Shown here: piece after piece, positions 650-20,174 of the stretch
Numbering within the stretch: position 1 is the stretch's first letter
Layout: each line of letters starts with the position of its first letter
DNA from: Deltaproteobacteria bacterium
Lineage (GTDB): Bacteria; Myxococcota; Myxococcia; SLRQ01
Direction: 5' to 3'
Length of the DNA: 64,000 bases
NCBI GenBank assembly: GCA_029210625.1
Contig: JARGFU010000026.1
Location: forward strand, 1 to 64,000
Position numbers and translations under genes: made by a program
The notes under the pieces: model-generated
What the model was told of the DNA's origin: nothing
Database searches by the model: none
Seen by the model: the letters and a program-made list of their open reading frames with translations, nothing else

Positions 650-857
650 CCGAGCCGCGCCTGCAAGCATCCCGCCAAGTGTCAATTGTCGGGGTCTGAC
701 CCCATCGGGGAGCAAGCGGGGGAGCCGCGAGCCGCTAGCCACGAGCCGGCCAGCCACCAGCCGCGAAGGATGGTGTCCGTTAGGCCCGGAGAACGCCCTG
801 TAACAGTGCGTGGCACCTATCCGCGCACCTATCCGCGCCTAACCCGGGAAAAGACGG
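650..857. repeat. Intergenic stretch with short word repeats, including GGCACCTATC
   Basis: No gene seen. At about 716-765 there is a run of diverged copies of a GAGCCGC/GAGCCG-like word. At 807-839 the word GCACCTATCCGC occurs twice in tandem, preceded by GTGCGTG. The second motif closely resembles one arm of the long hairpin at 28094-28240. Proximity to the transposase suggests a RAYT-linked repeat family; that is inference. Confidence 0.5.
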
Positions 858-962: not shown

Positions 963-3698
963 CTAGCTCGGATCGACGGGGATCTGACTGATCTGCGGCA
1001 CGGCCACCGCGCCGGTGCCGGTCCGCGTGGCGTTGTCGATGAAGGAGCAGCTGTCCGCCACGAAGGCGACGTTGGACTCGTAGTCCGCGGGGACGGTGGC
1101 GCCGGTCTCGATGGCGGTGCCGCCGGTGACGTGGATGCCCACGGTGTTCTCCCGCACCTCGACCCAGGAGAGGCGGGCGGCGGCGGTGAGGACCTTCACC
1201 CCGATGGCCTCGTTGTTCTGGATGACGCTGCGGCTGAGGGTGGCCCGGACGTTCGACCAGAGGACGACGCCGTCGGCGATGCCCTCGGAGGAGGGGTGGC
1301 TGTCGCGGACGAGGGTCTGGTCCACGAAGAGGAGGGTGCCGGGGAAGGCGGCGGCGACCCCGGCGACCTTGTTGCGGGCGACCTCCGAGCGCAGCAGGTC
1401 GAGGCTGGCGCCGTCCTGGGCCGCGACGCCGATCCCCTGGATCAGCCCCTCGGGGTAGCCGAAGAGCGAGTCGGAGAGGGAGAGGCGAGTGTCCACGCCC
1501 TGAGCCCAGGCGCCGAAGCCGTCGTTCTTCACCGAGGCCAGGGAGGAGACGGAGGCGGCGGCCTTCACCTGCACCGCCAGCCCATAGGCCTCGTACCCGC
1601 GACCGGGCCGGGTCTCCTTGATGGTCGAGTCGGCGAGGGAGAGCTGCGCGCCCTGGCTGGAGACGAGCACGCCGGTGGTGGAGTTGCGGGCGAAGGTGGT
1701 CCGGCTGACCGTGGCCGTGCCGTCGAGGTAGACCACCAGCCCCAGGCCGGCCTGGTCGCCCACCGGATCGTGGACGGTGTCGGCGACCACGCTGTCCTCG
1801 AGGACGAGGGAGGCCGGCTCGTCGCCGCCCTCGGCCCGGGTCACCCGCACGCCGATGTGCTCGTTGCCGCGGATCAGGCAGCGGCGGCAGGTGGCGTTGC
1901 CGCCGTCGTGGACGTCGAAGCCCATCGGGATGCCGCCCATGTCGGGGCGCGCCGTCGGACTCGAGGGGATCGTGCCCTCGACGATCAGCCCGTCGAAGGT
2001 GGCGGAGGCGCCGTTCTCCATCACGATCACGCCGCGGGTGCGGTTGTCGAGGATCGCGCCGTCCGAGACCGTGGCCTGCGCCGCGTCGACCACCCAGAGG
2101 CCCTGCCCGGACTCGCCCAGGGAGGAGGGCCGGGTGTCGCGGATCATCAGCCCGTCGATCGTCGCGTTGGCGCCGGCGCCGGCGACGACCACCGCGGCCT
2201 CGGCGGCTTCGAAGATGGCGAGGTCGGTCGCGGTGACGGTGGGGCCCTGCTGCACCATCAGCGCCCGGGTGCCCCCGGGCTGGGGCGTCGTGGGGTTGTG
2301 GCGCAGGGTCACCCGCTCGAGGTCGAGGGTGGTGCGGGTGTCCATGGCGAAGATCCCCATCACCGCCGAGCGCGCGATGGTGCTGTCGACGAGGGTGAGG
2401 CTCGCGCCGAAGTCGACCTGGGCGCCGATGCCGAAGGCGCCGGCGCCGTTGGGCAGGGTGTCGCGCACGACCGTGTTCTCGGCGCGCACCTCAGTGCCGG
2501 GGCTCGAGGCGTAGAGGCCCAGGGTGTGGCTCCCGGCCACCAGGCTGCCCCGCAGGAGCGCGGTCGCGCCGCTCTGCACGTGGACGCCGTGGCCGGTGCG
2601 GCCGCCGGTGTCGGTGGTGGTGTTCCAGATGATCGAGTCGACGATCTCCAGGGAGGCGCCGCCGGTGGCGAAGAGGCCGGTGCCCAGGTTGTCGACGAGC
2701 TCGCTCTCCTCCAGGACGATCCGCCCGCCGGGCTCGGCGCTGCCGCCCCAGCCGTGGGTCTTGCCGGCGCTCGGGCGGGTGCCGCGCACGACGCTGCGCC
2801 GCAGGACGATCTCGCTGCCGGCGTCGGCGGCGTAGAGGCCGAGGTCCTGGTTCGCCTCGATGAGCACCTCGGTCAGCACCATCTGCCCCTGCTGCAGCAC
2901 CGCCGCCCCGAGGAGGTGGCCGGTGAAGGTGATCCCCTCGATGTCGATCTTGCCGTCGAACATCAGGGCGCCGGGCTGGGTGCTGCCCGGGACCACGTCG
3001 AGGATCACCTCCTCGGCGCACTTCCCGACGATCTTCACCCCGGGGTAGGCGGAGATCTCGTCGACGTAGGTGCCCGGGTAGATCGCCACCAAGTCCCCGC
3101 CGCGCGCCTGGGCCAAGGCGTCGTTCAGCACCCGGTAGTGGGAGGCGTCGAGCTCGGGATCGGTGAAGGCGGCGTTCACGTGGAAGGTGGTGTCCGCCGG
3201 CGGGAAGGCCGCGCTGCAGTCGCCGATGGGGACGCAGCCCCGGCCGTCGAGGGTGGCCCGGGTGGCGCCGGTGCAGGGGGCCGCCGGGGCCAGGTCGACG
3301 CAGCCCCAGCCGCCGGGGTCGGCGCCGAGGGGCGGGGCGCAGGTGGTGTGGCCCACCGGCACGCAGGCGGTCTCGCCGAGGGCGGGGCGGGTGCCGGGGT
3401 CGCAGGGGCCGGCGGGCAGCACCGGCTCGCAGCCCCAGCCGTCGGCGACGGTCTGGAAGCCCGCGGCGCAGGCGACGTTGCCCACCGGCAGGCAGTCGGC
3501 CTGGCCCACCTGCGCCCGGGTGCCGGCCGGGCAGTCCTCGGCCGGCAGCACGGCCACGCAGACCTCGTACTGTGGGTCCTCGACGAAGCCGTCGACGCAG
3601 TCGAGGCCGCCGCCGCCGCCCCCCTTCGGGCAGGCGGCCACCAGGGGCAGCGCGGTGAAGAGGAAGACGGCGAGGGGGAGGCTCGCGTTCTTCGTCAC
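963..3698 (-). CDS. Beta-helix surface lipoprotein 5 (long type)
   Basis: About 911 residues, last of five paralogous lipoproteins. A signal peptide ends in the lipobox LVAAC (Cys23). Residues about 30-150 carry three or four cysteine-rich repeats of the form C-P-x-G-T/F ... GWGC ... C-x-P-V-G, shared with the other two long paralogues. After FPPADTTFHVNAAFTDP comes a parallel beta-helix opening (ALAQARGGDLVAIYPGTYVDEI) and many short turns of the type L-x-x-S-x-I/V-x-x-N/T. No catalytic residues are recognised; adhesion or surface display is inference. The start is uncertain: GTG at 3698 has GGAG seven bases upstream, while GTG at 3704 gives a GTGA overlap with the upstream stop. Upstream in-frame sequence has no coding character. 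Confidence 0.82.
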   Translation of the reverse strand: MTKNASLPLAVFLFTALPLVAACPKGGGGGGLDCVDGFVEDPQYEVCVAVLPAEDCPAGTRAQVGQADCLPVGNVACAAGFQTVADGWGCEPVLPAGPCDPGTRPALGETACVPVGHTTCAPPLGADPGGWGCVDLAPAAPCTGATRATLDGRGCVPIGDCSAAFPPADTTFHVNAAFTDPELDASHYRVLNDALAQARGGDLVAIYPGTYVDEISAYPGVKIVGKCAEEVILDVVPGSTQPGALMFDGKIDIEGITFTGHLLGAAVLQQGQMVLTEVLIEANQDLGLYAADAGSEIVLRRSVVRGTRPSAGKTHGWGGSAEPGGRIVLEESELVDNLGTGLFATGGASLEIVDSIIWNTTTDTGGRTGHGVHVQSGATALLRGSLVAGSHTLGLYASSPGTEVRAENTVVRDTLPNGAGAFGIGAQVDFGASLTLVDSTIARSAVMGIFAMDTRTTLDLERVTLRHNPTTPQPGGTRALMVQQGPTVTATDLAIFEAAEAAVVVAGAGANATIDGLMIRDTRPSSLGESGQGLWVVDAAQATVSDGAILDNRTRGVIVMENGASATFDGLIVEGTIPSSPTARPDMGGIPMGFDVHDGGNATCRRCLIRGNEHIGVRVTRAEGGDEPASLVLEDSVVADTVHDPVGDQAGLGLVVYLDGTATVSRTTFARNSTTGVLVSSQGAQLSLADSTIKETRPGRGYEAYGLAVQVKAAASVSSLASVKNDGFGAWAQGVDTRLSLSDSLFGYPEGLIQGIGVAAQDGASLDLLRSEVARNKVAGVAAAFPGTLLFVDQTLVRDSHPSSEGIADGVVLWSNVRATLSRSVIQNNEAIGVKVLTAAARLSWVEVRENTVGIHVTGGTAIETGATVPADYESNVAFVADSCSFIDNATRTGTGAVAVPQISQIPVDPS

Positions 3699-3700
3699 GA

Positions 3701-4900
3701 TCACACTCCGGGTACGTTCAGGGGAGACGCGGCGACGCCGAGGATCGCGCCGGGGTCGTCCTGGTTCAGGCTGGCGTCGAGATCCACGGCGTTGGTGGTG
3801 CGCTGGATGACCACCCCGAAGCCGCCGGTGCCGGGCTCGACGATGGCGGTGCCCACCACGATGCTGGTGCCGCCCTCGTCGACGAGGAGGCCCGCCCGGG
3901 CGTTGCCCGAGACCTCGAGGCCGTCGCGGAGGGAGACCTCGCCGCTGCCGCCGAAGAGGCCGACGCCGTCGCCGACGTTGGCGTAGCCCTGGTCGGTGAG
4001 CAGCTCGATGGGCGCGGTGTCGCGCACCCGGCAGGTGCCGACCACGATGCCCTGGGCGTCGATGCCGCCGAGGCCGACGATGGCGCTGCCGGTGATCTCG
4101 GAGGTGGCGCCGTCGATGGTGAGCGCCGGGGCGTCGATCGTCCCGCGGAGGAACTGGGCCCAGACGCCGCGGCCCCGGTTCTCGCTCACGATCAGGTCGG
4201 TGAAGGCGCTCTTCGTCTCGGCGCCGTCGACCAGCACCGCGACCTCGCCCGCGCCCCTGACCGACATCCGGTCGGACTGCAGGGTGGCGCCGCCGGTCAC
4301 CGAGAGGCCGATGCCCGCCTCGATGGAGACGCCGTCGAAGTCGTGCAGGTCGTTGTCCTCGAGGAAGGCGTTGACCCCCTCGATCACGATCCCGTTGAGG
4401 CTGTCGTGGATCTCGTTCTCGAGGATCTCCACGCGGGCCGTGTCGCAGCCCGACTCGAAGCAACGCAGGACGAGGCCCACCCCCTTGGGCGCCGAGAGGC
4501 GGCTGCGCATCACCCGGGCGGGGCCGCCGAGGACGAGCAGGCCGTGCCCCGCGTCCGAGGCGACGTCGAGGTGAGCGACCAGGCTGCCCGGGCCGCCCTC
4601 GAGGATCAGGGCGGGCTCGCCGGCCGCGCCGCCGAGGAAGACCGGCGGCTCCTTCTCGTTGCCCGCCAGGACGACCCCGGCGGGGACCAGGAAGCTGCCG
4701 CTGTACTCGCCCCGGGCGGGCTGCACGCAGTCGCCCTCCACCGCGCCGGAGAGGAGCTCGCGCAGCTCGTCCTCGCCCTTCGCCTCGAGGTTGCGCTCGC
4801 ACTGAACGCGGTCGAGGGGCCAGGCGCCACCTCCCCCGCAGCCGGCGGCGGCGGCGAGGAGGAGCGTGCCCGCGACGATCTGCATTCCCTTCGACGACAT
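3701..4900 (-). CDS. Beta-helix surface lipoprotein 4 (short type)
   Basis: About 399 residues. The lipobox AAAGC (Cys21) follows a short signal peptide. There is no cysteine-rich region; the mature protein goes almost directly into a beta-helix entry (GDCVQPARGEYSGSFLVPAG) and about ten turns. It is closely paralogous to the short protein at 9033-10259: both contain VVGT-C-VRDT and end with a GTAIV(E/D)PG...GVV(I/V)Q(R/N)TT segment. It sits immediately upstream of, and overlaps, lipoprotein 5. ATG 4900 has AAGG eight bases upstream; GTG 4909 is an alternative. The function is unknown and surface exposure is inferred. Confidence 0.83.
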   Translation of the reverse strand: MSSKGMQIVAGTLLLAAAAGCGGGGAWPLDRVQCERNLEAKGEDELRELLSGAVEGDCVQPARGEYSGSFLVPAGVVLAGNEKEPPVFLGGAAGEPALILEGGPGSLVAHLDVASDAGHGLLVLGGPARVMRSRLSAPKGVGLVLRCFESGCDTARVEILENEIHDSLNGIVIEGVNAFLEDNDLHDFDGVSIEAGIGLSVTGGATLQSDRMSVRGAGEVAVLVDGAETKSAFTDLIVSENRGRGVWAQFLRGTIDAPALTIDGATSEITGSAIVGLGGIDAQGIVVGTCRVRDTAPIELLTDQGYANVGDGVGLFGGSGEVSLRDGLEVSGNARAGLLVDEGGTSIVVGTAIVEPGTGGFGVVIQRTTNAVDLDASLNQDDPGAILGVAASPLNVPGV

Positions 4901-4996
4901 CGTACTCACCTTAGACCCTTCCCGGGATGCGCGGAAAGTGGCGCATGGGGTCCGGGCTGTCCGTGTCGGGGATCACGGGGCCGGGAGGGGCCCGGA

Positions 4997-7093
4997 TCAG
5001 GGGTGCAGGGGGGGATCTCCGCCGGTGGGCGTCTCGGGCAGGACCACGCTCTCGGTCGAGATCCGCACGCTGTTGCCCTCGAAGACCGTGGCCTCGTCGA
5101 TGACGAAGGTGCCCAGGCCGATGGTCGAGGGCAGGGTGCTGACCGTCTCGAGGACCATCTCCTCTCCGGCCCGCAGGCCCAGGGTGTTGTCCAGGACCCG
5201 GCTCTCGACCAGGCTGCCCCCGCAGTTCTCCAGCCAGAGGCCGACGTGGGCGCTCGAGCGGATCTCGCTCTTGCGGATGTGGACGGTGGAGTTGAAGAGG
5301 CAGGAGACGCCATCCCCGTAGAGGAGCTCCGGGCCGGCCTCCCGGGTGTTGCTGATCACGCTGTCCTCGATCCGCGTCGAGGCGTTCAGCCAGGTCATCA
5401 GGCCGAAGCCCGGCGCCTGGTCGAACCAGGACTCGCGCAGGACGCAGGCCGCCCCGGCGGCGCACTCGAGGGAGCCCCCGAGGAGCACCGAGGGGTTGCC
5501 CTCCGGGAAGGTCAGGAGGAGGCGGCTCATCTCGAGGGTCGTGCCCGGGTCGGTGGCCCGCAGGCCGAAGAGGTTGCGGGAGCGGATCTCCATGCCGGCG
5601 ACCTCGACCTGGCTTCCCTGCAGGGCGACCAGGTCCGTCGTCTCGGTGCCGTTCCCGGGATCGAGGGTGCGGTCCTCGAGGAAGACCCGGGAGAGCGAGG
5701 CCCGGCTCGAGTCGACGTGGAGGGTCTCGCCGTGACCCTCGAGCACCGCCACGTCGGTGAGCGAGGCGTCGGCGTCCAGCGCGATCCAGATCCCCACCCC
5801 GGGGTAGACCGCCTCGCCGCGCAGGGTGGTCCAGGGCTGGGTGCTGCGCAGCGTGTCCCGGCTGACCACCCGCTCCAGGGTCGCGGTCGAGCGCCGCACC
5901 AGGATGTTGGCGGTGTGGTTGCGGGTGCTGGTGAGGCCCTCGATCGTGGCGTCGGCGCCGCCGAGGACGGCGAGGCCGAAGCCGGAGAGGCCGGTGTCGT
6001 CGGAGACGGTGTCCGCGATGGTGCTGTCGAGGATCGTGAGCCGGGTGCGGGGATCGGAGGCGACCACCCCGATGCCCGAGCTCCCGAGGATCGCCGACCC
6101 GCCGATCCAGAGGGTGCCGCCGGCGTGGACCTTCACCCCGGCGTCGCTCTGCAGGCCGGTGTCCAGCGTGGTGCGCAGGACCACCGTGCGGTCGAGGTGC
6201 AGGCTGCCGGTGCCCGAGACGTAGGCGGCGACCCCCACGTTGTCGGAGAGGGTCGAGTCGACCACCTCCAGGCGGCCTCCGTCGTTCACCGCCACGGCGT
6301 TGCCGGTGACCTCGCCCGCGCCGGCGCGGGTGCCCCGGATCGCGGATTGGTTGATGGAGAGGCGGGTGCCCGTCTCGATGGCGATGGCGCCGTAGGCGAT
6401 GCTGTCCTCGATCACCGAGTGGACGACCAGGGCCTCGGCGCCGCCGACGGCGCCCAGCCCCGGGAGGAAGCCCCGGACGGTCAGGTGGCTGACGGTGGCG
6501 CCCCGGACGCCCTGGAAGAGGATCCCCATCCCCGGGTCGAGGGCCGGCGCCTGCAGGATGGTGTCGGTGGGGCAGCTTCCGATGAGGGTGATCGGCCGGG
6601 TGATGACCACGTTCTCGACGTAGGTGCCCGCGGCCACCGCGATCACCGCACCCTGGGGCGCCGCCGAGACGGCGGCCCGGATCGAGCGGAAGTGGGTGGC
6701 GTCGGTCGAGCCCGCGGGGTCGACGAAGTGGGTGGCGTCGGGGGAGGTGCCCATGCGGCAGTCGGCGACTGGCTGGCAGGCGGCGTCACCGAGCGCCTCC
6801 CGGGTGCCGTTGACGCAGGGCCCCGCGGCGACCACCGGGCGGCAGCCCCAGCCGTCGTCCTCGCTCTCGAAGCCCAGCGGGCAGTCCGGACCGATCGGGA
6901 CGCACTCCCGCTCACCGAGCAGGCGCATGCTCCCGCCCGGGCAGGGCTCGGCCGGCACGACGCCCACGCAGCGGCCCCCGGCGTCCGCCTCGAAGCCCAC
7001 GGGACAGATCACCTCGGGCGCAGGCTCCTTCGGGCAGCCCGGCGCGAGGAGGAGCAGGAGGAGGGGGAGGACGAGCGCGGTGCGGTGGTGCAT
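4997..7093 (-). CDS. Beta-helix surface lipoprotein 3 (long type)
   Basis: About 698 residues. A leucine-rich signal peptide ends in LLAPGC (Cys20). Cysteine-rich repeats (CP-x-GFE...GRCVGV, DGWGC) fill about 20-120, then THFRSIRAAVSAAPQGAV opens a right-handed beta-helix with DUF1565-like entry (AAGTYVENV). It shares architecture with lipoproteins 2 and 5 and ends like lipoprotein 2 in a V-R-I-x-x-E-x-VVLP segment. Start ATG 7093 with GAGAG upstream; a TTG at 7105 is possible. It lies 18 bases after the stop of lipoprotein 2. No enzymatic motif is visible. Confidence 0.83.
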   Translation of the reverse strand: MHHRTALVLPLLLLLLAPGCPKEPAPEVICPVGFEADAGGRCVGVVPAEPCPGGSMRLLGERECVPIGPDCPLGFESEDDGWGCRPVVAAGPCVNGTREALGDAACQPVADCRMGTSPDATHFVDPAGSTDATHFRSIRAAVSAAPQGAVIAVAAGTYVENVVITRPITLIGSCPTDTILQAPALDPGMGILFQGVRGATVSHLTVRGFLPGLGAVGGAEALVVHSVIEDSIAYGAIAIETGTRLSINQSAIRGTRAGAGEVTGNAVAVNDGGRLEVVDSTLSDNVGVAAYVSGTGSLHLDRTVVLRTTLDTGLQSDAGVKVHAGGTLWIGGSAILGSSGIGVVASDPRTRLTILDSTIADTVSDDTGLSGFGLAVLGGADATIEGLTSTRNHTANILVRRSTATLERVVSRDTLRSTQPWTTLRGEAVYPGVGIWIALDADASLTDVAVLEGHGETLHVDSSRASLSRVFLEDRTLDPGNGTETTDLVALQGSQVEVAGMEIRSRNLFGLRATDPGTTLEMSRLLLTFPEGNPSVLLGGSLECAAGAACVLRESWFDQAPGFGLMTWLNASTRIEDSVISNTREAGPELLYGDGVSCLFNSTVHIRKSEIRSSAHVGLWLENCGGSLVESRVLDNTLGLRAGEEMVLETVSTLPSTIGLGTFVIDEATVFEGNSVRISTESVVLPETPTGGDPPLHP

Positions 7094-7111
7094 GGCGACT
7101 CTCAACTTAGC

Positions 7112-9055
7112 TCAAGGCGAGAAGCTCGGGGGCGAGGGCAGGACCACCCGCTCGCTGGCGATGCGGACCAGGTTCTCCCGGAAGAGGGTGTCCTCGCTGA
7201 CCAGCAGGCGGTCCGGGGGCAGCTGCGCGGGCAGGCCCTCCACGACCTCCAGGGCCACGATCCCCTGGGTGTTCAGGCCGACGGTGTTGTCCTCGAGGAT
7301 GGAGTGCTCCACCCCGGCCGCGCCGCCGGTGGAGACGCCGCCGCTCTCGTGGCCCACCGTGAGGCCGAGTCCGTCGGTGCCCCGCACGCGGCTCTCCGAG
7401 AGGAGGAGGGTGCCGGCGTCGTGCACCAGCAGGCCCAGCCCGCGCTGGGTCTCGCTCACCGGCCGGGTGCCGATCACCCCCAGCCGCTCGGCCTCCAGGC
7501 GCGAGCCGGCCCCGGCGGTCTGCACCCCCACCCAGCCCGCCTCCCAGACGGTGTAGTCCTCGACCCGGCCGGTGGCGCCGTCCATCACCGCCAGGCCGAT
7601 CCCCCGGGCCTCGCCGGTGGCGATGTGGGTCCGGTGGGCGAGGATCTCCCGGGCCACCAGCACCGAGGGGCCGAGGGCCACCACGGCGTCGGCGGCCTGC
7701 TCGAGGAGGGCCACGTCGGTGAGGCCCAGCTCGCCGCCGGCGGTGACCGCCGCGCCCGCGTTGGTCTCTACGACCCCGCCGGCGGTGGTGGCGCCGCGGA
7801 TCACGCCGGTGTCGAGGAAGGCCCGGCCCTTGCTCACGAGCACGGCCACGTCCCCGCCGCTGCGGAAGGTGAAGCCCGAGATCTGCGCCTCGGCGCCGTC
7901 GTAGACCTCCAGCACCCGGCCGCGGGCCGTGCCGCTGGGCAGCTCGGCCAGGTCGTGGACGATCACCTCCTCGGCCAGCAGGAGGGTGCCCTCGCCGTCG
8001 AGGTGGAAGCCCGCCTGGCCGCTCTGCCGGAAGAGCGAGGTGCGCGCCTCGATCCGCCCGCCGGCGTCGGCGAGCATCGCCAGCGCCCGGGTGCCGGAGC
8101 CGCCGGGGAAGCCCCGCTCGGCGATCACCCGCTCGAAGGTCACCCGGCTGCCCGCCTCGAAGGCCACCCCCGCGCCCTGGTAGTAGCCGTGGATCCACCC
8201 CTCCGAGAGGGAGACCGTCCCGCCGCCCCGCGCCAGGACGGGGATGCCGTCGCTGCCGTCGCTCCCGGGCAGGGTGTCCTGGATGACCACCTCCCGGGCC
8301 CGCAGCACCGCCCCCGGACCGAAGGCGGCCAGCCCCAGGCTGCCGACCTGGCCGAGGTAGAGGTGAGAGGCGTCGAGGCTGCCGCCCTCCCGCACCTGGA
8401 TCCCGCCGGCGTAGTTCCCGAAGGAGACGTGCGAGAGGCCCGCGCTCACCCCCGCCTCGACCACCACCGACCAGCCGGCCATCAGGTCCCCCAGGAGGGT
8501 GCCCGCCGCGCAGCGGCCCTCGAGGGTCATCGGGCGCTCGAGGACGAGGACGCCCTCGTAGACCCCGCGCTCGATGGCGAGGTGGGCGCCGGCCGGGGCG
8601 GCGGCGACGGCGGCCTGGAGGGAGGCGAAGTGCGTCGCGTCCACCTCGGCCGCCGAGTAGTCGTCGTCCACGAAGATCGTCGCCGCGGCCGGAGGGAAGG
8701 CGCGCTGGCAGTCGTCGATCCGCACGCAGCCGGCCTCCCCGAGCACCGGCTTGAAGCCGGGCTGGCAGCCGGTGGCGTACACCGGCGCGCAGCCCCAGCC
8801 GTCCGCGGCGGCCTCGAAGCCGTGGGGGCAGGCCCGGGTGGCGCCGTGGCCCACCGGGACGCAGCCGCCCGCGCCGACCCGCGGGCTGGTCCCCGCCGGG
8901 CAGGCCCGCTCGCTGAGGCCCGGCCAGCAGGCATCCTCGATCCACTCGCCCCCCTCGTCCTCGCAGGCGCGGACGGGATCGTGGCAGCCCCCCAGCAGCG
9001 CCCCCACGAGGAGGAGCGCCGCCGGCAGCGGATCAGGGCGTCGCCTGGGTCCCAT
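7112..9055 (-). CDS. Beta-helix surface lipoprotein 2 (long type)
   Basis: 647 residues. Signal peptide with lipobox ALLGGC (Cys24). The cysteine-rich region (about 24-120) contains DGWGC and C-V-P-V-G repeats like those of lipoproteins 3 and 5. The beta-helix begins near FASLQAAVAAAPAGAHLAI, an entry typical of pectate-lyase-like DUF1565 proteins, and runs to the C-terminus, which ends RVVLPSPPSFSP. The ATG at 9055 overlaps the end of lipoprotein 1 by 23 bases, suggesting translational coupling. No catalytic site is recognised. Confidence 0.84.
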   Translation of the reverse strand: MGPRRRPDPLPAALLLVGALLGGCHDPVRACEDEGGEWIEDACWPGLSERACPAGTSPRVGAGGCVPVGHGATRACPHGFEAAADGWGCAPVYATGCQPGFKPVLGEAGCVRIDDCQRAFPPAAATIFVDDDYSAAEVDATHFASLQAAVAAAPAGAHLAIERGVYEGVLVLERPMTLEGRCAAGTLLGDLMAGWSVVVEAGVSAGLSHVSFGNYAGGIQVREGGSLDASHLYLGQVGSLGLAAFGPGAVLRAREVVIQDTLPGSDGSDGIPVLARGGGTVSLSEGWIHGYYQGAGVAFEAGSRVTFERVIAERGFPGGSGTRALAMLADAGGRIEARTSLFRQSGQAGFHLDGEGTLLLAEEVIVHDLAELPSGTARGRVLEVYDGAEAQISGFTFRSGGDVAVLVSKGRAFLDTGVIRGATTAGGVVETNAGAAVTAGGELGLTDVALLEQAADAVVALGPSVLVAREILAHRTHIATGEARGIGLAVMDGATGRVEDYTVWEAGWVGVQTAGAGSRLEAERLGVIGTRPVSETQRGLGLLVHDAGTLLLSESRVRGTDGLGLTVGHESGGVSTGGAAGVEHSILEDNTVGLNTQGIVALEVVEGLPAQLPPDRLLVSEDTLFRENLVRIASERVVLPSPPSFSP

Positions 9056-10259
9056 CGTCGACCCCCAGGGTCGGGGGGGTGTCGGTCTGCACGGTGGAGT
9101 TGATGTCCACCGCGCCGGTGGTGTTCTGCACCACCACGCCGTAGCGGCCCGCGCCGGGGTCGACGATGGCGGTGCCCACCACGATGCCGGCCCCGCCCTG
9201 GTCCACCAGGACCTGGGCGCGGTCGTTGCTCGAGAGCGCGGCCTCGGCGCCGAGGTTCACCTCGGCGGTGCCGCGCAGGAGCGCGATCCCGTCGCCCACC
9301 TGGGAGACGTTGCCGCCCCCCTCCGGCCAGGGCACCGGCCGGGTGTCCCGCACGATGCAGGTGCCCACCACGATGCCGACCGTGTCCACCGAGCCGATGC
9401 CCGCCTTCGCGTTGCTGGCGATGGTGGAGGTCGCGCCGTCGACGTAGAGGGAGGGGACGCCGATGCTCCCGCGCAGGCCCTGGACCCAGACGCCCGGGCC
9501 GTCGTTCTCGCTCACCTCGACGTCGAGGAGCTCGGCGGTGGTCTCGGCGCCGTCGGCCAGGAGGCCCATGCCGCCGTTGCCGATGATGCGATCGCCGTTG
9601 CCCTCGAGGCGGCCACCGCGGGTGACCAGGGCGCCGTAGCCCTCGATGGCGCTGCTGTCGACGTTGTCCTCGAGCAGGACCCCCGAGGTCGCGACGAGGA
9701 TGCCGTCGGCCCACAGGCCCACCTGGCTGCCGTGGAGGCGGCTGTCGACGACCTCCACCACGGCCTCCGGCGAGCAGCCCGCGGCGGGGCAGCCCAGGTA
9801 GACCGCGATGTCACCGGGGGCGGTGACCGAGAGGTTCTCCAGGCTCGCCGGGCCCTCGCGCACGTCGATGCCCTGCCCGCCGGTGGCGACGATCTCGAGG
9901 CCCACCACCCGGGAGAGGGCGCCGCCCTCGACCTGCAGCACGGGGTCGTCGGTGCCCTCGGCCTGCAGGAGGGGGAGCTTGTCCTCGCCGGCGATGAGGG
10001 TGACCCCGGCGGGCAGCTTGAAGTGGCCCTCGTAGGTGCCGTTGCCGAGGACCACGCAGTCGCCGGGCTTGGCGGCCTCGAGGGCGCGGGAGAGGGCGCT
10101 CGAGCCGCCGGCGGAGTGGACCTCGGCGCACTCGGTGCCCTCGGGCACCTCGGGGGAGCCGCAGCTCGCCCCCAGCGAGAGCAGGGGCAGGAGCAGGAGG
10201 GCGAGCTGGCCGGCGAGCGCGGAGGAGCGCGGGGATCGAAGGTCGTGGTGTGGGCGCAT
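9033..10259 (-). CDS. Beta-helix surface lipoprotein 1 (short type)
   Basis: 408 residues. Signal peptide with lipobox LGASC (Cys33). Like the other short member it lacks the cysteine-rich repeats and starts the helix at GDCVVLGNGTYEGHFKLPAG. Start ATG 10259 has AGGAG upstream. It is first of the five lipoprotein genes and follows the cyclase/AAA regulator by 40 bases. The short-long pairing (1+2 and 4+5) suggests an ancestral pair was duplicated. Role unknown; surface scaffold, adhesin or carbohydrate binding are the usual options for this fold. Confidence 0.83.
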   Translation of the reverse strand: MRPHHDLRSPRSSALAGQLALLLLPLLSLGASCGSPEVPEGTECAEVHSAGGSSALSRALEAAKPGDCVVLGNGTYEGHFKLPAGVTLIAGEDKLPLLQAEGTDDPVLQVEGGALSRVVGLEIVATGGQGIDVREGPASLENLSVTAPGDIAVYLGCPAAGCSPEAVVEVVDSRLHGSQVGLWADGILVATSGVLLEDNVDSSAIEGYGALVTRGGRLEGNGDRIIGNGGMGLLADGAETTAELLDVEVSENDGPGVWVQGLRGSIGVPSLYVDGATSTIASNAKAGIGSVDTVGIVVGTCIVRDTRPVPWPEGGGNVSQVGDGIALLRGTAEVNLGAEAALSSNDRAQVLVDQGGAGIVVGTAIVDPGAGRYGVVVQNTTGAVDINSTVQTDTPPTLGVDDGTQATP

Positions 10260-10299
10260 GGGGCAGGTCTCCTCTTTCTCGAGAGTCCTTGCCTCCCAC

Positions 10300-13200: not shown

Positions 13201-13620
13201 GCTCTGGGGGACGCCGAAGACGGCCATCAGGGCGTCGCCGATGTACTTCACCACCGTCCCGCCCCGCGCCTCGACCTCCCGGGCCAGGGGGCTCATGCAG
13301 GTGTTGGCCAGCTCCCAGACCAGGTCGGGCTCCAGGGTCGAGGAGAGCGCGGTGAAGCCCGCCAGATCGGCGAAGAGGATCGTGGCGATCTTCCGCTCGT
13401 CGCTCCAGCGGGCGCCCGGGGAGCCGGCCGCCGGCGAGACCTCGAAGTCGGTGGGCTTGCCGCAGCGGAAGCAGTAGTGGTCGGTGGACTTGAGGCCGGC
13501 GTGGCAGTGGTGGCAGGAGGGGAGACCGGTGCCCGCGCCGCAGGCCGAGCAGAAGCGGGCCTCGGGGTGGAGCTGTTCTCGACAGGCGCGGCAGAAGCGC
13601 TGTGGTTGCAGGGTCGTGAT
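10300..13620 (-). CDS. Zinc-ribbon / class III cyclase / AAA / TPR signalling protein
   Basis: About 1106 residues. Order: two zinc ribbons (Cys10/13/24/27 and Cys36/39/50/53), a class III nucleotide cyclase domain about 75-250 with both metal aspartates (FADLAGFT, Asp85; YIGDA, Asp129), an AAA/STAND-type ATPase from about 300, then TPR-like helices to the end. The P-loop reads GEAGLGKE: the usual final Ser/Thr is Glu. No ATG, GTG or TTG exists between the upstream in-frame region and the first zinc ribbon; a strong GGAGG stands four bases before an ATC (13620) and thirteen before a CTG (13611). The start is therefore non-canonical and uncertain. It follows cheB by 74 bases and precedes the lipoproteins, so it may link chemosensing to their output. 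Confidence 0.85.
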   Translation of the reverse strand: MTTLQPQRFCRACREQLHPEARFCSACGAGTGLPSCHHCHAGLKSTDHYCFRCGKPTDFEVSPAAGSPGARWSDERKIATILFADLAGFTALSSTLEPDLVWELANTCMSPLAREVEARGGTVVKYIGDALMAVFGVPQSHRDDASRAVEAGMAMAGRIEEVRGEIRDRFGGDISLRIGINTGLVMVGTVGEGADRRPDVLGTAVNLASRIETAASPGEVLVGPATWRRVAGRFLGETREPIPLKGIPEPVALTRITRRRTEDEEREATNWMLHAPMMRELELETIQTSFELVVQQGRARIVRLVGEAGLGKELVLRRLWRSFKSDLRKPLLLEASGRRWLPDTVSPLVILAGLLRSWHLVPPTANPGEARQQLIRRLEDQLGAEASASVYHLLADLAGLHDVDARFESNASYSNLDEVVDAFALWLRSLTRRRPVVLLLSDLQRADPASLDALPRLFDRLERSSLLGVLSSEPRLDEQRPGYLENRASCERILLGPLPQESMVALVHELLTTVDNVPEEAAISLAERAEGNPGYARELVRMLHDQRVIVRDATGRGTWDASLYRPDALPETVQGVLQARLDSLPPEEKEVLKRAAVVGRTFWAGAVRALVPLAVQQQVPQSLESLCHQRIIDRRSRSQVPGDEEYVFKSSALRDTALSSLPAGVRRSVHLGTATWMRAQGEVWEDGHLLLASHAIAGGRPQEARWPLTYAARRAAAIYANDSAVELYRRSLELWPAEVEIEERVAVQRELTQGLARIGEVEDALSTLATAAEDCRVLPDELREQQLAWIEFERGLIQKDDGRSAEALTSLESALARLESFEDLILRVRLLAEKGFLHGNAGDHEASEACLVEAASLVPSRAQRGSEAWRAAAAHLANARGILHMRKGEWKAATPLFEQSIEESEGLGLSRVTLLARINLGAISFLFQDFEGALEHFEGAMHSARRAGDTALESVARGNRGQAMMELGRKSQALEEIRAALKLARAGQRRDVIADAGSCMAELLSERGEWAEAETQARESLAEAEAMGQPVYEVAARRALVAALDCKRRARDRTEDLREARAALEEALAAAERLQNVAPEETELLQTRFAELLTADVIGSTDHPAA

Positions 13621-13694
13621 GTCCCCTCCGAAAGAGAGGATTCTACCCGATCCTCGCCGCCCGGGCCTCTTCTCGACCCGGGCGCGCTTTGAAC

Positions 13695-14759
13695 CTAGGT
13701 CTCGAAATTCAAGGGCGGCAGCAGCCACTCGGCCAGGGTGAGGCCGATTTCGGCGGGGGAGAGGAGGGCCTCGGCGGCGCCCAGCTCGGCGGCGGCCAGG
13801 GGCATCCCGAAGACCGCGCAGCTCTTCTCGTCCTGGGCCAGGGTGCGGGCGCCGGACTGGCGCAGGGCCAAAAGTCCGTCCGCGCCGTCGCGCCCCATGC
13901 CGGTGAGCAGCACCGCGAAGCGCTGCATCCCGGTGAGACCGGTCAGGCTGCGGAAGAGGCGGTCGATGGAGGGGGCCGCGCCCGTGCCCTGCGCCCGCTC
14001 GAGGCGGAAGATCCCCTCGGGCAGGAGGGTGGTGTGGTGGTTGGCCGGGGCGACGTGGATCATCCCGCGCTCGAGGGGGTGGCCGGCCTGGGCCAGCTTC
14101 ACCTGCCGGCCGGTGGTGTTGGCCAGCCAGTGGGCGAAGGCCTCCGAGTAGTCGTGGGGCATGTGCTGGGCGATGATCACCGGCGCGGGCACCGGGGAGG
14201 CCAGGGCTCCGAGGAGCTCGAGGAGGGCCACCGGGGCGCCGGTCGAGCCGCCGATGGCCACCACCCGGGGCAGGCTCTGCCCGGTGACCTCCGGGCGCAG
14301 CGGGCCGGAGGGCCGGGGGTAGTCCGGGCGCCGCCGCCCGGAGGTCGGCTCCTCCTCGGGGGGCGGGGCCGCGCGCTTGCGCGCGTGACGGATGGTGCGG
14401 ATGCTCGCCATCAGCCGGATCGACTCGAGGATCTTCTCCCGCCCGCGGTGCCCCTCGACCCACTCCAGGGCGCCGCAGGAGAGGGCCCTCATCCCCAGCC
14501 GCGAGTCGGTGCAGACGGCGACGATGGGGAGGGAGGCCTCCGCCCGGATCTCGGTGATCAGGCGGCAGGCCAGCTCGGTGTTCACCGCCACCACGATGAT
14601 CCGGGGGTCCCGCCGCTCGACCATCCGCAGGATGGAGGCGACGTCGTGGCCGGTGCCCACCACCGCCACCTCCGGGCACTGGCCCAGCTCGGTGGAGAGG
14701 GCCTCGACGGCCGCCGGATCCCTGCCGACGACCAGGAGGTCGAGGGCCGCTCCGATCAT
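13695..14759 (-). CDS. cheB: CheB-type methylesterase with degenerate receiver
   Basis: 354 residues. The C-terminal half (about 160-354) is a complete CheB methylesterase: catalytic Ser172 in GGSTG, His199 in AQHM, Asp291 in GMGRDGADG. It would demethylate or deamidate receptor glutamates or glutamines. The N-terminal receiver fold is retained but its phosphorylation chemistry is gone: the acidic pair is Gly12-Arg13, the acceptor aspartate position is Ala58 (IIVVAVN), and the conserved lysine is not apparent. Activity must therefore be controlled otherwise, or be constitutive. Its start overlaps the cheA stop by four bases (ATGA). Confidence 0.92.
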   Translation of the reverse strand: MIGAALDLLVVGRDPAAVEALSTELGQCPEVAVVGTGHDVASILRMVERRDPRIIVVAVNTELACRLITEIRAEASLPIVAVCTDSRLGMRALSCGALEWVEGHRGREKILESIRLMASIRTIRHARKRAAPPPEEEPTSGRRRPDYPRPSGPLRPEVTGQSLPRVVAIGGSTGAPVALLELLGALASPVPAPVIIAQHMPHDYSEAFAHWLANTTGRQVKLAQAGHPLERGMIHVAPANHHTTLLPEGIFRLERAQGTGAAPSIDRLFRSLTGLTGMQRFAVLLTGMGRDGADGLLALRQSGARTLAQDEKSCAVFGMPLAAAELGAAEALLSPAEIGLTLAEWLLPPLNFET

Positions 14760-16966
14760 TCAGCGTCTCCGAGCAGCTCGGCGATGGTCTGGAGCAGCTG
14801 GGTCTGATCGAAGCGGCTCTTGACGATGTAGGCGTCGGCGCCGGCCTTCCGGCCGCGCTCCTCGTCCTCCTCGGAGCCCAGGGAGGTCACCAGGATCAGG
14901 GGCTTCTTGCCCAGCTCCGGGTCCGCCCGGATCTTCCGCGCCAGGCCGATGCCGTCGAGGACCGGCATCTCGACGTCCGAGACCACCAGGTCGTAGTTGC
15001 CGGCCTTGAGGGCCTCGAAGGCCTGGGAGCCGTCGCTGGCGGTCTGCACCAGGTAGCCGTGGCTCTCCAGGACGTGCCGCTCGAGGGTGCGGGTGGTGAT
15101 CGAGTCGTCCACCACCAGGATCGCGCGCCGGACGCGGGCCGCCTTCGGCTTGGCCGCCCGGATCCCGGCCTGGTCGATGTCGAAGATCTCCACCGGGTTG
15201 AGCACCGGCACCACCTGCCCCTCCTCGCCGATGGTCGCGCCGAGGACGCCCCGGACCTTCCGGTAGGGCGGCCCGAGGGCGCGCACGACCATCTCGTCGT
15301 CGCCGAGGATGCGATCCACGAGGACGGCGACGCGGCCGCGGGGCGTGACGATCACCACCGCGTGGCTGCGCTCGTCGCCGCCCTCGCCCTGGCTCTCCAC
15401 GCCCTGGAGGCGGTGGACCAGCGCCGAGCGGCCGCCGATCTCCACGCAGGGGCGGCCGTCGAGGGTGAAGATGCTCTCGGGGTCGACCCGGGAGGTGGAC
15501 TCGACGCCGGCGACCGGCAGGGCGTAGACCCTGCCCCCGGCCGTCACCCGCAGGACGTTGGTCGTCAGCAGGCTCGCCGGGAGCGAGAGGAGGAAGCGGG
15601 TGCCCTTGGGCTCCCGGGCCTCGATGGAGAGGCTGCCGCCCTCCCTCTCCATCGCGGTGCGCACCACGTCGAGGCCGACCCCGCGACCGGAGACCTGGGT
15701 GACCTTCCGGGCGGTGGAGAAGCCGGGGCTGCAGGCCAGCTCGAAGATCTGGCCCTGCGAGAGCCCGGCGAGCTCCTCCTCGGTGACCAGCCCCCGCTCG
15801 AGGGCCTTCCGGGAGATGGCCTCGACGTCCATGCCCGCGCCGTCGTCCTCGACCACCACGGTGATGCGGTCGGCGCCGGTCTCGAGGCGCAGGAGGACGG
15901 TCCCGGTGGGATCCTCGCCCTGGGCGGTGCGCGCCTCCGGCAGCTCGATGCCGTGATCCACCGAGTTGCGCAGCATGTGCATCAGGGGCGGCTTGAGCAG
16001 CTCGAGGTGCCGGCGATCCAGGCCGGCCTCGGCGCCCTCGACCTCGAGGCGGACCTGCTTGCCCGTGGCCTCGCAGGCCTCCCGCAGGGTCAGGCGCAGG
16101 GAGGTCTCGAGGGACTGGAAGGGCACCAGCCGCATCCGCCGGAACTGATCCTCCAGGTCGGTGAGGGCCAGGTCCGTCCGGCGGCTGGACTCGCGGCCGT
16201 GCCGGTACTGCAGCTCCAGCTCCTCCCCGAGCTCCCGCAGGGCGTCGATCTCCTCGGGGCCGAGCCGGCCCTCGCTGGCGCGATCCGCCAGGCGCTGGGA
16301 GAGGAGCGCCAGCTCCTCCAGGCGGTCGATGTCCCGCCGGCCCTGCACCCGCAGCATCGCGAGGGCGGCGACCGGAGAGAGCACCTGCTCGAGGGCCGTG
16401 CTCTTGACCCGGATGAAGCCGCCGGAGGCGCCGCCGCTCGCCGCCGCCGGACCCGCCTCCTCTCCCGGGGCGTCGTCGGCGGAGGAGGCCGGGGTCTTCT
16501 TCGTGCCGCGCAGGACCCGCTTGCGCTTCTTGCCCGCGGGCTCCGGCGCGGGCTCCGGCTCCGGCTCGGGTTCGGGTTCGGGGGCGGCCTCCACCTCCAG
16601 CCCGAGGCGGCGCTGGAGCTCGGCGGGCGGGTCGCCCGGCTCCTCGAGGGACTCGAGCAGCCAGTGCACGGCGGCGAAGAGGTCGTCGACGATCTGCCGG
16701 GGCACCGGATCGCCGTCGGCGACGGTGGCCAGGCGATCCTCGGCGGCGTGGGCGATCTTCCCCAGCGACGCGAAGCCGACGCTGTTGGCGGCGCCCTTCA
16801 CGTTGTGGAGCTTGCGCTTGAGGTTCACCCGGTGCTCGGTCTCCGAGACCGGATCACCCGAGGCGCCGAGCTGCTCGAGGCCGGCCGCGACGTCCTCGAG
16901 GTGCTCCTTCGCCTCGTCCCGGAAGATCGCGAGGATCTCCGGGGGCAGCTGCATGCGACGCGCCAT
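14756..16966 (-). CDS. cheA: CheA histidine kinase fused to a C-terminal receiver
   Basis: 736 residues. An Hpt domain comes first, with phospho-accepting His54 in LHNVKGAANSVGF. A flexible Glu-Pro-rich linker follows (about 128-145), then the dimerisation domain (about 185-285), the HATPase (N-box around Asn334, DDGAG near 374-378, GRGVGLDVV at 428-436), a CheW-like regulatory domain (about 468-600), and a receiver (about 614-736) with acceptor Asp664 in SDVEMP. No separate CheY-binding P2 is obvious. The attached receiver may be the main output or a phosphate sink. It starts three bases after the CheW-MCP gene stop and overlaps cheB. Confidence 0.95.
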   Translation of the reverse strand: MARRMQLPPEILAIFRDEAKEHLEDVAAGLEQLGASGDPVSETEHRVNLKRKLHNVKGAANSVGFASLGKIAHAAEDRLATVADGDPVPRQIVDDLFAAVHWLLESLEEPGDPPAELQRRLGLEVEAAPEPEPEPEPEPAPEPAGKKRKRVLRGTKKTPASSADDAPGEEAGPAAASGGASGGFIRVKSTALEQVLSPVAALAMLRVQGRRDIDRLEELALLSQRLADRASEGRLGPEEIDALRELGEELELQYRHGRESSRRTDLALTDLEDQFRRMRLVPFQSLETSLRLTLREACEATGKQVRLEVEGAEAGLDRRHLELLKPPLMHMLRNSVDHGIELPEARTAQGEDPTGTVLLRLETGADRITVVVEDDGAGMDVEAISRKALERGLVTEEELAGLSQGQIFELACSPGFSTARKVTQVSGRGVGLDVVRTAMEREGGSLSIEAREPKGTRFLLSLPASLLTTNVLRVTAGGRVYALPVAGVESTSRVDPESIFTLDGRPCVEIGGRSALVHRLQGVESQGEGGDERSHAVVIVTPRGRVAVLVDRILGDDEMVVRALGPPYRKVRGVLGATIGEEGQVVPVLNPVEIFDIDQAGIRAAKPKAARVRRAILVVDDSITTRTLERHVLESHGYLVQTASDGSQAFEALKAGNYDLVVSDVEMPVLDGIGLARKIRADPELGKKPLILVTSLGSEEDEERGRKAGADAYIVKSRFDQTQLLQTIAELLGDAE

Positions 16967-16969
16967 TCG

Positions 16970-18214
16970 CTAGACCGTGTGGCGGGCGACGAGCTTCGAG
17001 AGCGTCCCGGCGAGGTTGTCGAGCTCCCGGGCGGCGCCCTCGGTGCTCCGGGTGGCCTCCTCGGTGTCGCGGGTGGCCTGGCGGATGCTGCGCATGGCCT
17101 CGGAGACCTGATCGATGCCGAGGGCCTGCTGGCGGGAGAGGGCGGCGATCTGCCGCGCCGACTGGATCGACTCCTCGATGATGTTGGCGAGCTGCTGCAG
17201 GGTGTCGCCGGTGCGGTGGGCGAGCTTCACGCCGGCGTCGGCCTTCTTGGCGCCCTCCTCGGTGACCATCACCGCGTTGTTGGTGGCGGCCTGCACGTCG
17301 CCGACGATGGCGCGCACCTGCCGCGTGGCCTGCTTGGACTGCTCGGCCAGGTTGCGCACCTCGGAGGCGACCACCGCGAAGCCGCGGCCCCGCTCGCCGG
17401 CCTTGGCCGCCTCGATCGAGGCGTTGATGGCCAGCAGGTTCGACTGCTCGGCCAGCTCGCTGACCGACGCGACGATCTCGCCGATCTTCTGGTTCTTCTC
17501 GGAGAGGGAGAGGATGTTCCGGGCGATGGACTGCACCTGATCGCGCAGCTCGCGCATCCCCTCCAGGGTGGACTCGACGGCGCCCATGCCCTCGTCGAAG
17601 GAGCCCTGGGCGGCCTCGGTGGTGCCGATGACCGACTGGGCCCGCTCGGCGGCCTGCTCGGCGGTCTGCCGGACCTCCTCGACGGTGGTGGTGATCTCGG
17701 CCACCGCGGCGGCCTGCTCCGAGGCGCCGGTGGCCTGCTGGGTGGCGGTGGTCAGGAGGTTGCCGCCGGCGGTGCCCAGGTCCTTGGTGGCCTGCTGGAT
17801 CTCCCGCGAGAGGCGGTGGAGGCTCTCGGCGGTGATGTCGAGCTGGCGGCCCAGGGCGATCACGGCGTCGCCCTCTCCGGCGAGGATGACGGCGGTGATC
17901 TCCTTCGAGCGCCCGCCGAGGGCCCGCGCCAGATCGATCACCGTGAGGATCTGCCCCTCGACGTAGGTCAGGCCCGCGGCCAGGGGCGGCGCGTTCGGCA
18001 GGGGGGTCAGGTCGGAGACCGCCACCACCCGGTCGATCTCGGTGAGGCCCACCGCGCAGCGCAGCTCGCCCACCCGCACCACCAGCACCTCGTCCTCCTC
18101 GACCAGGGCGGCCTCGGGATCGCTGCGGCGGGCGAGCACCTCGGCGCGATCGCGCAGCAGGGCCTCGAGCTCCTCGGGGCCGAGGCGCTCCTCGGGGCCG
18201 GGTCGATGGTTCAT
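16970..18214 (-). CDS. Soluble CheW-MCP fusion chemoreceptor
   Basis: 414 residues with no transmembrane segment. Residues about 42-135 match a CheW-like domain ([38 protein letters not shown]). Residues about 140-410 are a methyl-accepting signalling coiled coil with the canonical tip ([35 protein letters not shown]). There is no PAS, HAMP or other sensory domain. A CheW domain in place of a sensor would tether this cytoplasmic receptor into the array through coupling rings. It lies between cheR and cheA at one- to three-base spacing. Confidence 0.9.
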
Positions 18215-19669
18215 CTAGGGGTGCCCTCCGCTGCGCATCCCCTCCCCCCCGCAGGAGCCGAGGAGGGAGAGGAGGGTCTGGTGGAGCTCGGCCCGGGAGA
18301 GCCCGCCGCCGCCCTCCACCGGGGTGTCGTCGGCGCCGGCGCCGGCCTCGACCAGCTTCAGGGCCTGCTGGTACCAGTCGCAGGCGGCCTCCCGCCGGCC
18401 GAGGGTCGAGAGGAGGTTGCCCATGAGGTAGCGCCCCATCAGGCTGTCTGGCTCACGGGCGAGGAGCCGATCGAGGGACTCGGCGGCCTCGTCGAGGTGG
18501 CCGCTGTCCAGCTCGACCAGGGTGAGGATGACCAGCGCCTCGCTCTCCTCGCCGGGCAGGCCCGTGGCGCTCTGGAGGAGGTGCCGGGCGTCGTCGTGGC
18601 GGCCCTGGTCCGCGGCGAGGCGGGCCATGGTCACCGGGGAGATCGGCGAGAGCTCGACCGCCGGGCCGCCCCCGTCCGCGCTCGTCTGCCGCGCCCGGGC
18701 GGCCCGCCGCGCGGCGCTGCGGGCCATCGCGCCGCCGTCGCCCAGGCTGCCGCGGCGCCGGGCCGGGGTATGGAGGCGGCCGGGCCGCGGGGCGACCTCG
18801 CTCGCGGTGGAGGGCAGGGCGGGGGCGCGCCGCGCGGCGCCGTCCTCCCGCTGGTAGACGATGACCCCGTCGACGTCGATGGAGGTGAAGCCCGGCGGGA
18901 TCCGGGCGGCGCCCTCGGCCGGCCCGAGGACCAGGATGCCCCCCGGCCGCACCGCCGACTGGAAGGTGGCGAAGGCCGCCTCGAGGGCCGGGCGATCGAA
19001 GTAGATGAGCACGTTGCGGCAGACGACCAGGTCGAAGGTCGCGCCGCCCGGCGAGCCCTTCAGCAGGTTGTGCTGCTCGTAGGCGATGGGCGCCCTCACC
19101 GCCGCGTGGGGCTCGTAGTGCTTGTCGATCTGGCGGAAGTAGCGCTCCCGGATGGAGTCGGGCACGCCGCGGAAGGACCACTCGCCGTAGTGGGCCCGGC
19201 GGGCGCGGGTCAGCGCGGCGCTGGAGAGGTCGGTCGCCAGGATCTTGATCTCCTGGGGGCCGCCCTCCTCCCGGGCCTCGAGGAGGGTGATGGAGAGGGA
19301 GAGGGGCTCCTCACCGGTGGAGCAGCCGGCGGACCAGGCCTGGAGGGCGCCGCCGCCGATCCGGCCGCGCCCCCGGGCCTCGGCGGCCTGCTCGAGCACC
19401 AGGGTGCGCACCGCCTCGAGCTGCATGGGGTGCCGCAGGAAGTAGGTCTCGTGGTTGGCCAGCTGCTCGATGAAGCGGGCGAGGCGCGCCGGCTCCTCGG
19501 AGAGCAGGCCCTCGGCGGTGTGCTCGGGGTCCCGCCCGTGGGTCGAGAGGCCCTCGAGGAGGAGCGGGAAGCGCTGGCCGCCGAAGTCGAGGCCGAAGCG
19601 CCGCCGGATCACCTTCACCAGCCGGCTGATCGCGGGAGGCCGGCGGGCTCCCACCACCGTGGGGCTCAT
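18215..19669 (-). CDS. cheR: CheR methyltransferase with C-terminal TPR
   Basis: About 484 residues. CheR transfers methyl groups from SAM to receptor glutamates. The SAM-binding motif WSAGCSTGEEPLSLS is at about 112-126, and VCRNVLIYFD and LVLGPAEG follow. Residues about 280-350 are a low-complexity basic linker, then TPR-like helices to the end. The start at 19669 overlaps the cheW stop as ATGA, with AGGAGG upstream. Confidence 0.94.
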   Translation of the reverse strand: MSPTVVGARRPPAISRLVKVIRRRFGLDFGGQRFPLLLEGLSTHGRDPEHTAEGLLSEEPARLARFIEQLANHETYFLRHPMQLEAVRTLVLEQAAEARGRGRIGGGALQAWSAGCSTGEEPLSLSITLLEAREEGGPQEIKILATDLSSAALTRARRAHYGEWSFRGVPDSIRERYFRQIDKHYEPHAAVRAPIAYEQHNLLKGSPGGATFDLVVCRNVLIYFDRPALEAAFATFQSAVRPGGILVLGPAEGAARIPPGFTSIDVDGVIVYQREDGAARRAPALPSTASEVAPRPGRLHTPARRRGSLGDGGAMARSAARRAARARQTSADGGGPAVELSPISPVTMARLAADQGRHDDARHLLQSATGLPGEESEALVILTLVELDSGHLDEAAESLDRLLAREPDSLMGRYLMGNLLSTLGRREAACDWYQQALKLVEAGAGADDTPVEGGGGLSRAELHQTLLSLLGSCGGEGMRSGGHP

Positions 19670-20133
19670 GCCTCCTCCTTCGGCTCTTCGGGCGGGTCGG
19701 GCTGCTTCACCTCCTGCACCAGGGCCGCGGTCCTCGGATCGAGGAGCCCGTCCACGTCGAGCACCGCCACCGGCGAGCCCTCCCGCAGGAGGTAGCCCAC
19801 GACGAAGGCCGGCGCCGAGGCCGAGCGGGGGGTGCTCGTGGGAGAGCCCTCGATCAGGCCCTCGATCGAGTCGATCTTGAGGGCGACCTGGTCCTCTTCC
19901 CGGGAGAGCACCAGGAGGAAGTCGGCCTGGCAGGGGGGCTGGATCTTCAGCCCCAGCCGGTGGGCCGGATCGACCACGACCAGCAGCTCCCCCCCGAGGT
20001 TCAGCACGCCCAGCACGTCGGGGGGGGCCTCGGCGACCGGGGTGGGCCAGGCCAGCCGGAGGGCCTCCTCGACCCGCTCCACCGGGACGGCATAGCACTC
20101 GCTGGAGACGGAGAAGGAGAGGAACGAGGTCAT
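19666..20133 (-). CDS. cheW: CheW coupling protein
   Basis: 155 residues, first gene of the long minus-strand run. It couples receptors to CheA. The CheW fold is clear: FLSFSVSSECYAVPVERVEEAL, PPDVLGVLNLGGELLVVVDPAHRLGL, VALKIDSIEGL. Met at 20133 is taken because homology starts there; no good ribosome-binding site is visible. An upstream in-frame extension to 20229 lacks family resemblance and would cross a TATACT promoter-like element. Confidence 0.9.
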   Translation of the reverse strand: MTSFLSFSVSSECYAVPVERVEEALRLAWPTPVAEAPPDVLGVLNLGGELLVVVDPAHRLGLKIQPPCQADFLLVLSREEDQVALKIDSIEGLIEGSPTSTPRSASAPAFVVGYLLREGSPVAVLDVDGLLDPRTAALVQEVKQPDPPEEPKEEA

Positions 20134-20168: not shown

Positions 20169-20174
20169 AGTATA
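20169..20174 (-). promoter_or_regulatory. Candidate -10 element for the cheW-led operon
   Basis: TATACT on the minus strand, about 36 bases upstream of the cheW start, in the divergent gap to the CheY-like gene. No convincing -35 is seen. Confidence 0.35.

Follow-up and report, generated by a model that had tools for sequence, protein, structure and literature searches.

An ACF-like chemosensory gene cluster beside a putative cyclase and beta-helix lipoprotein module in a Myxococcota genome

Introduction

The Frz system of Myxococcus xanthus combines a cytoplasmic receptor, a fusion of CheA to a receiver domain and a CheR protein with TPR. Fusion of CheR to TPR is typical of chemosensory clusters of the ACF class, and the regulators of CheR-TPR clusters include mononucleotidyl cyclase outputs (PMC3447774). 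In Pseudomonas aeruginosa, a chemosensory system, Pil-Chp, is known to work through the adenylate cyclase CyaB (PMC3019171). For lipoproteins with a beta-helix fold, a search of a literature collection returned no paper combining beta-helix, lipoprotein and myxobacteria.

Here we analyse a locus in which genes of these kinds lie in a row. The window, that is, the whole stretch of DNA analysed, comprises bases 1-64,000 of a contig of 67,246 bases (C26) and contains zero N; it belongs to a deltaproteobacterial genome of 6.1 Mb (64 contigs, 98% complete, ~73% GC). Related Che loci are present in genomes of the same class named Myxococcaceae, Archangium and Myxococcales, while the sole same-family genome sampled (G001, 85% complete) has none of the features discussed here at the thresholds used.

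Results

The initial annotation described eleven consecutive minus-strand genes running from cheW (20133) to a fifth beta-helix lipoprotein (963), and this layout is borne out by the reading frames, the codon-position signal and Pfam; third-position GC is 0.92-0.99 across the genes, a strong coding signal. From cheW onwards the intergenic distances are, in order, -4, 0, 3 and -4 bp between the five tightly packed Che genes, 74 bp from cheB to the cyclase gene, 40 bp from there to the first lipoprotein gene, and -23, 18, 111 and -4 bp between the five lipoprotein genes (LP1 to LP5). Two of these gaps, those of 74 and 111 bp, are of the non-overlapping kind. The lipoprotein array is followed at its 3' end by a gene resembling REP-associated tyrosine transposases (44-757, minus strand; 63.8 bits against a cut-off of 80), because of which a mobile-element origin of the run was considered. 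Third-position GC is even throughout the run, and repeats at its boundaries were not established.

The Che block holds, by Pfam, a complete set of CheA, CheW, receptor, CheR and CheB, all on the minus strand. It consists of cheW (19666-20133, 155 aa; PF01584, E 7e-22), a cheR-TPR methyltransferase gene (18215-19669, 484 aa; PF01739, E 2.5e-43, plus TPR) of the kind carried by ACF clusters, a receptor gene (16970-18214, 414 aa; PF01584 and PF00015), cheA (14756-16966, 736 aa) with one Hpt, HATPase, CheW and receiver domains, and cheB (13695-14759, 354 aa). The sole Pfam match of CheB is PF01339, and in alignment its N-terminus resembles a degenerate receiver without the phospho-acceptor Asp, as it does in three relatives. 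Divergently encoded, a single-domain CheY-like receiver (20256-20651, plus strand; PF00072, E 1.3e-20) is the probable response regulator of the block. Pfam finds no multidomain response regulator in the cluster, only this protein and the receiver of CheA; such a regulator is frequent, not universal, in ACF clusters. No pilus gene occurs among the annotated proteins around the run.

The receptor joins an N-terminal CheW-like part to an MCP signalling part. In two relatives (G110 and G126) the CheW-like gene and the MCP are separate and the MCP carries hydrophobic membrane-type segments, whose place is occupied by the CheW-like part in the window's receptor (segments identified by eye). On this comparison of sequences, the receptor of the window's lineage is a soluble CheW-MCP fusion that replaces a two-gene membrane-receptor arrangement. 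Orthologous Che genes form equally tight clusters in three Myxococcaceae-type genomes (G107, G110 and G126), with MCPs 68-70% identical, and there the clusters run on, as far as the contigs reach, into DUF4395, STK-receiver and CheY-like genes. In the window's genome no match spans both the kinase and the receiver of this STK-receiver protein; therefore, the Che output partner of the relatives appears to be absent here. The window also contains a second chemosensory set (38115-42694, minus strand) made of cheB, cheW, cheR-TPR, cheW and a receiver, without cheA, and a 90-bp unit occurs in two copies within its cheR gene (40536-40715).

The gene that follows cheB (10300-13620, minus strand) encodes a protein of about 1106 aa, its start tentative, with a zinc ribbon, a class III guanylate-adenylate cyclase domain (PF00211, 97.6 bits), AAA_16 and TPR, and without a receiver domain (Pfam). 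The closest solved structure to the cyclase domain is that of P. aeruginosa CyaB (3r5g, 98.6 bits), relative to which the catalytic residues are kept by eye, namely the two metal-binding Asp, the Lys for adenine, the Asn and the Arg. The product is probably cAMP. A GTG start at 13728, which would overlap cheB, is unlikely because third-position GC of the in-frame stretch 13621-13728 is 0.58, against 0.97-0.99 in genes; the first codons after a GGAGGGG site are non-canonical starts. Elsewhere in the window (24365-27985, minus strand), a second cyclase/AAA protein has two cyclase-like stretches by eye (PF00211, E 0.005) followed by an AAA domain, an arrangement reminiscent of soluble adenylyl cyclase.

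The five lipoproteins, all encoded on the minus strand, fall into two subfamilies. The short one comprises LP1 (9033-10259) and LP4 (3701-4885), which are 41% identical; the long one comprises LP2 (7112-9055), LP3 (4997-7093) and LP5 (963-3704), is characterized by Cys-rich N-terminal repeats, and has one extra lone paralogue on contig C4. Pfam Beta_helix is found in four of the five (PF13229, E 9e-23 in LP5), the match of LP1 being under the curated cut-off; LP2 has no Pfam match and is homologous to LP3 and LP5. AlphaFold2 predicts a confident parallel beta-helix for LP1 (pLDDT 88.9; homologues support the assignment) and LP3 (pLDDT 87.5), and the Foldseek matches of the models are glycan-active beta-helix proteins, at the level of the fold and with about 10% identity. 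By inspection, the hydrophobic N-termini end in GAS-C, LGG-C, APG-C, AAG-C and VAA-C, the boxes of LP1 and LP3 being weak. Upstream of the run, the window contains a lipoprotein-like gene (20763-22796, minus strand) with a partial match to the VolA/Pla-1 phospholipase family (53.9 bits against a cut-off of 383.9), and tandem arrays of the 12-bp unit CGTCCACGTACA at 22876-22931 and 52636-52667.

A Che-cyclase-lipoprotein order conserved in relatives had been suggested as a check, and no relative has it. Among 68 che or MCP loci, most with 1.5 kb flanks, none except the window includes a cyclase domain or a lipoprotein; conversely, the 74 loci around lipoprotein matches, some genomes counted more than once, contain no che gene, and a search based on the MCP uncovered no sister species arranged like the window. 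The Che cluster and a short-long lipoprotein pair sit on different contigs in G110 and G126. This pair is kept in many genomes of family f2, in varied surroundings.

The cyclase and the lipoproteins are neighbours more widely. In two further families of the phylum, related cyclase/TPR proteins lie beside a homologous short beta-helix lipoprotein. In the first (G061), two long lipoproteins, a zinc-ribbon/cyclase/AAA/TPR gene and a convergent short lipoprotein are all adjacent, and along 1078 alignment columns the enzyme runs collinear with that of the window at 27% identity; in the second (G187), 67 bp separate a short lipoprotein from the cyclase/TPR gene after it, in which the AAA match is weak. 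In a third family (G074), the neighbour of the short lipoprotein is an AAA-TPR protein truncated N-terminally where the contig ends, so that no cyclase domain is visible. Moreover, an orthologous kinase-TPR gene (STK-TPR) adjoins the short lipoprotein in four Myxococcia genomes (G111, G151, G040 and G159; loci L149, L155, L151 and L147), with 42-57% identity among these four, and lies one gene away from it in G149. The short lipoprotein of G165 has no enzyme neighbour of such a kind, and most short-lipoprotein loci of family f2 have no enzyme adjacent. A rough Poisson estimate of chance, with the window excluded and based on 9 to 40 cyclases in each genome and on gene totals approximated from genome size, gives P of about 0.006 for the whole set of short-lipoprotein loci and 3e-4 for those outside families f2 and f10, values that are indicative only because the pattern was noticed before testing. 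Enzyme and lipoprotein occur on the same strand, with the enzyme upstream or downstream, or convergently, and since their orientation differs between genomes a shared operon is not a conserved feature. A further cyclase-lipoprotein neighbourhood is seen in G125 (L209, 7429-12369), where a CHASE2-cyclase gene and the gene for a long beta-helix lipoprotein diverge.

We looked for signals that divide the run. A consensus sigma-70 scan has no match anywhere in it, and an enrichment test of TANNNT hexamers was used in its place. Across about 460 kb of this genome, window included, TANNNT occurs 69 times within 120 nt upstream of leader genes (6.5 expected) and 12 times before operon-internal genes (6.0 expected); when the window is omitted, 43 of 90 divergent leader genes carry such a hexamer within 100 nt, compared with 9 of 91 internal genes. 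Two of the six TANNNT sites on the minus strand of the run stand out. TATACT (20169-20174), a likely -10 element, lies 35 nt before the cheW ATG and is present in a single copy in the window, and TAGAAT (13640-13645), a likely -10 element for the cyclase-lipoprotein block, lies between cheB and the cyclase gene, in a gap with low third-position GC. TAGAAT has ten copies in about 464 kb, of which nine fall outside genes; the tenth is the copy at 13640-13645, which is labelled as inside a gene solely because of the GTG start rejected above. Of the other nine, six lie within 100 nt before a same-strand gene. TANNNT sites at 7109, 4913 and 4904, before LP3 and LP4, were not accepted, as the first includes a stop codon and TACGAT is at least as common upstream of operon-internal genes. 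In contigs C2 and C4 of G000 (L053, L063-L082), TANNNT peaks 11-15 nt before predicted starts (18 of 48 divergent leader genes), which suggests many leaderless or short-leader transcripts.

A strong internal promoter together with a terminator around 13620-13695 had been named as the sign that the run is not one unit, and it is seen only in part. The promoter-like TAGAAT fits the genome's signature, with no -35 box at this site, and a separate promoter between cheB and the cyclase is likely. No terminator-like site occurs in the 74-bp gap; an inverted repeat, GCCCGGG...CCCGGGC (13659-13683, by reading), has no T run after it and was not scored as a terminator. Thus, Che transcripts may read through into the cyclase-lipoprotein genes.

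Discussion

We favour, with moderate confidence, an explanation in which two neighbouring modules meet at the cheB-cyclase boundary: an ACF-like Che cluster and, beside it, an independent and recurrent module of a TPR enzyme with beta-helix lipoproteins, any functional coupling between the two being positional. The first module, cheW-cheR(TPR)-cheW/MCP fusion-cheA(REC)-cheB plus the divergent cheY, would be read from the putative promoter upstream of cheW; it would have a soluble receptor, a CheA with its own receiver and a CheB probably free of phosphorylation control. The second, comprising the cyclase/AAA/TPR enzyme and then the beta-helix lipoproteins, would have its own probable promoter. 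Its cyclase would probably produce cAMP once the AAA/TPR part senses an internal ligand, while the lipoproteins would stand at the envelope, probably in the outer membrane, as glycan-contacting beta-helices. Because relatives keep the two side by side, a common process is probable for the enzyme and at least the short type of lipoprotein.

The main rival explanation has all genes in a single operon and the lipoproteins under control of the Che pathway, either by way of the cyclase as a relay (from CheA through a receiver to the cyclase, cAMP and the lipoprotein genes) or through plain co-transcription. One long transcript is possible, since all genes are on one strand with gaps of at most 111 bp and no terminator; chemosensory control via an adenylate cyclase has a precedent in Pil-Chp and CyaB, the latter being the closest solved structure to the window's cyclase domain, and cyclase outputs are known for CheR-TPR clusters (PMC3447774). 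However, no relative keeps the order, a promoter is likely at the boundary and the cyclase has no receiver domain, so we regard this explanation as unlikely. That the lipoproteins are partners of the CheA pathway, as was originally proposed, is unsupported because, among the loci compared, only the window pairs Che genes with a cyclase or lipoproteins; a Che signal reaching them is possible from their position. Similarly, the cyclase was placed as a link between both sides, and since in distant genomes homologous lipoproteins have related enzymes next to them, we group it with the lipoproteins and drop its role as a bridge to Che. A more far-reaching reading combines two ideas. Large cytoplasmic TPR enzymes (zinc-ribbon cyclase/AAA/TPR or zf-HC2 kinase/TPR) would make up, together with the short beta-helix lipoproteins, a recurrent Myxococcota envelope-signalling module not described so far; and in the window's lineage this module would have come to lie behind a Che cluster whose receptor gave up its membrane part on fusion to CheW, such that a cytoplasmic Che array steers surface lipoproteins via the cyclase. 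Taken together, this is improbable.

The opposite extreme would be that Che genes, cyclase and lipoproteins are three unrelated sets that follow one another by chance. Gene order is fluid in these large genomes and most lipoprotein loci have unrelated neighbours; yet the short lipoprotein has a cyclase/TPR or AAA-TPR protein as its neighbour in three further families, and an orthologous STK-TPR in four genomes, which makes a chance neighbourhood quite improbable. We give very little credence to a Pycsar-like anti-phage cyclic-nucleotide system with the lipoproteins as effectors. PADLOC PycC profiles do match the cyclase domain, but the matches are confined to the general class III domain (best 76 bits), none of the lipoproteins tested has a PADLOC match, and the neighbours are Che genes and lipoproteins, with no adjacent gene for a cyclic-nucleotide-binding effector. 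A Pycsar identity was rejected on this basis.

The pairing of enzyme and lipoprotein, which is seen again in distant relatives, may be a signalling unit not yet described. If the association is real, these anonymous beta-helix lipoproteins gain a first functional lead, to cyclase or kinase TPR proteins. The CheW-MCP fusion, set against the two-gene state kept in relatives, offers a clear case of a chemoreceptor without a membrane part. More broadly, a long same-strand run mixes modules here and is not readable as a single pathway.

How does the locus compare with described systems? The overall right-handed beta-helix fold of the lipoproteins is common to AlgE4/AlgG epimerases, PL6 lyases, tailspikes and the adhesin PfbA; in contrast to these carbohydrate-active proteins, the lipoproteins would be lipid-anchored, with about 10% identity, mostly low TM-scores and no catalytic motif identified. 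The enzyme aligns over its cyclase and AAA domains and a portion of its TPR region with the TOMM_kin_cyc family (TIGR03903, 166.9 bits), far under the curated cut-off of 705.75; the window's protein has no kinase domain and no TOMM genes nearby. Like Pil-Chp and CyaB, the window pairs chemosensory genes with a CyaB-like class III adenylate cyclase domain, but its cyclase is soluble, with zinc ribbon, AAA and TPR, and instead of the multiple Hpt and nearby pilus genes of the Pil-Chp (Tfp) class it has one Hpt in CheA and no pilus genes. Frz of M. xanthus and the Che block are alike on paper, compared by design and not by orthology, with CheW fused to the receptor in the window. Closest are the ACF-class clusters with CheR-TPR, such as Wsp and the M. 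xanthus che clusters (PMC3447774). Unlike these, the window's cluster lacks a multidomain response regulator and has a soluble CheW-MCP receptor and a degenerate CheB receiver; it shares with them CheR-TPR, CheA with a receiver, CheB, CheW and MCP, tight packing and the absence of motility genes alongside. By its gene and domain content, the Che block is most likely an ACF-type chemosensory cluster.
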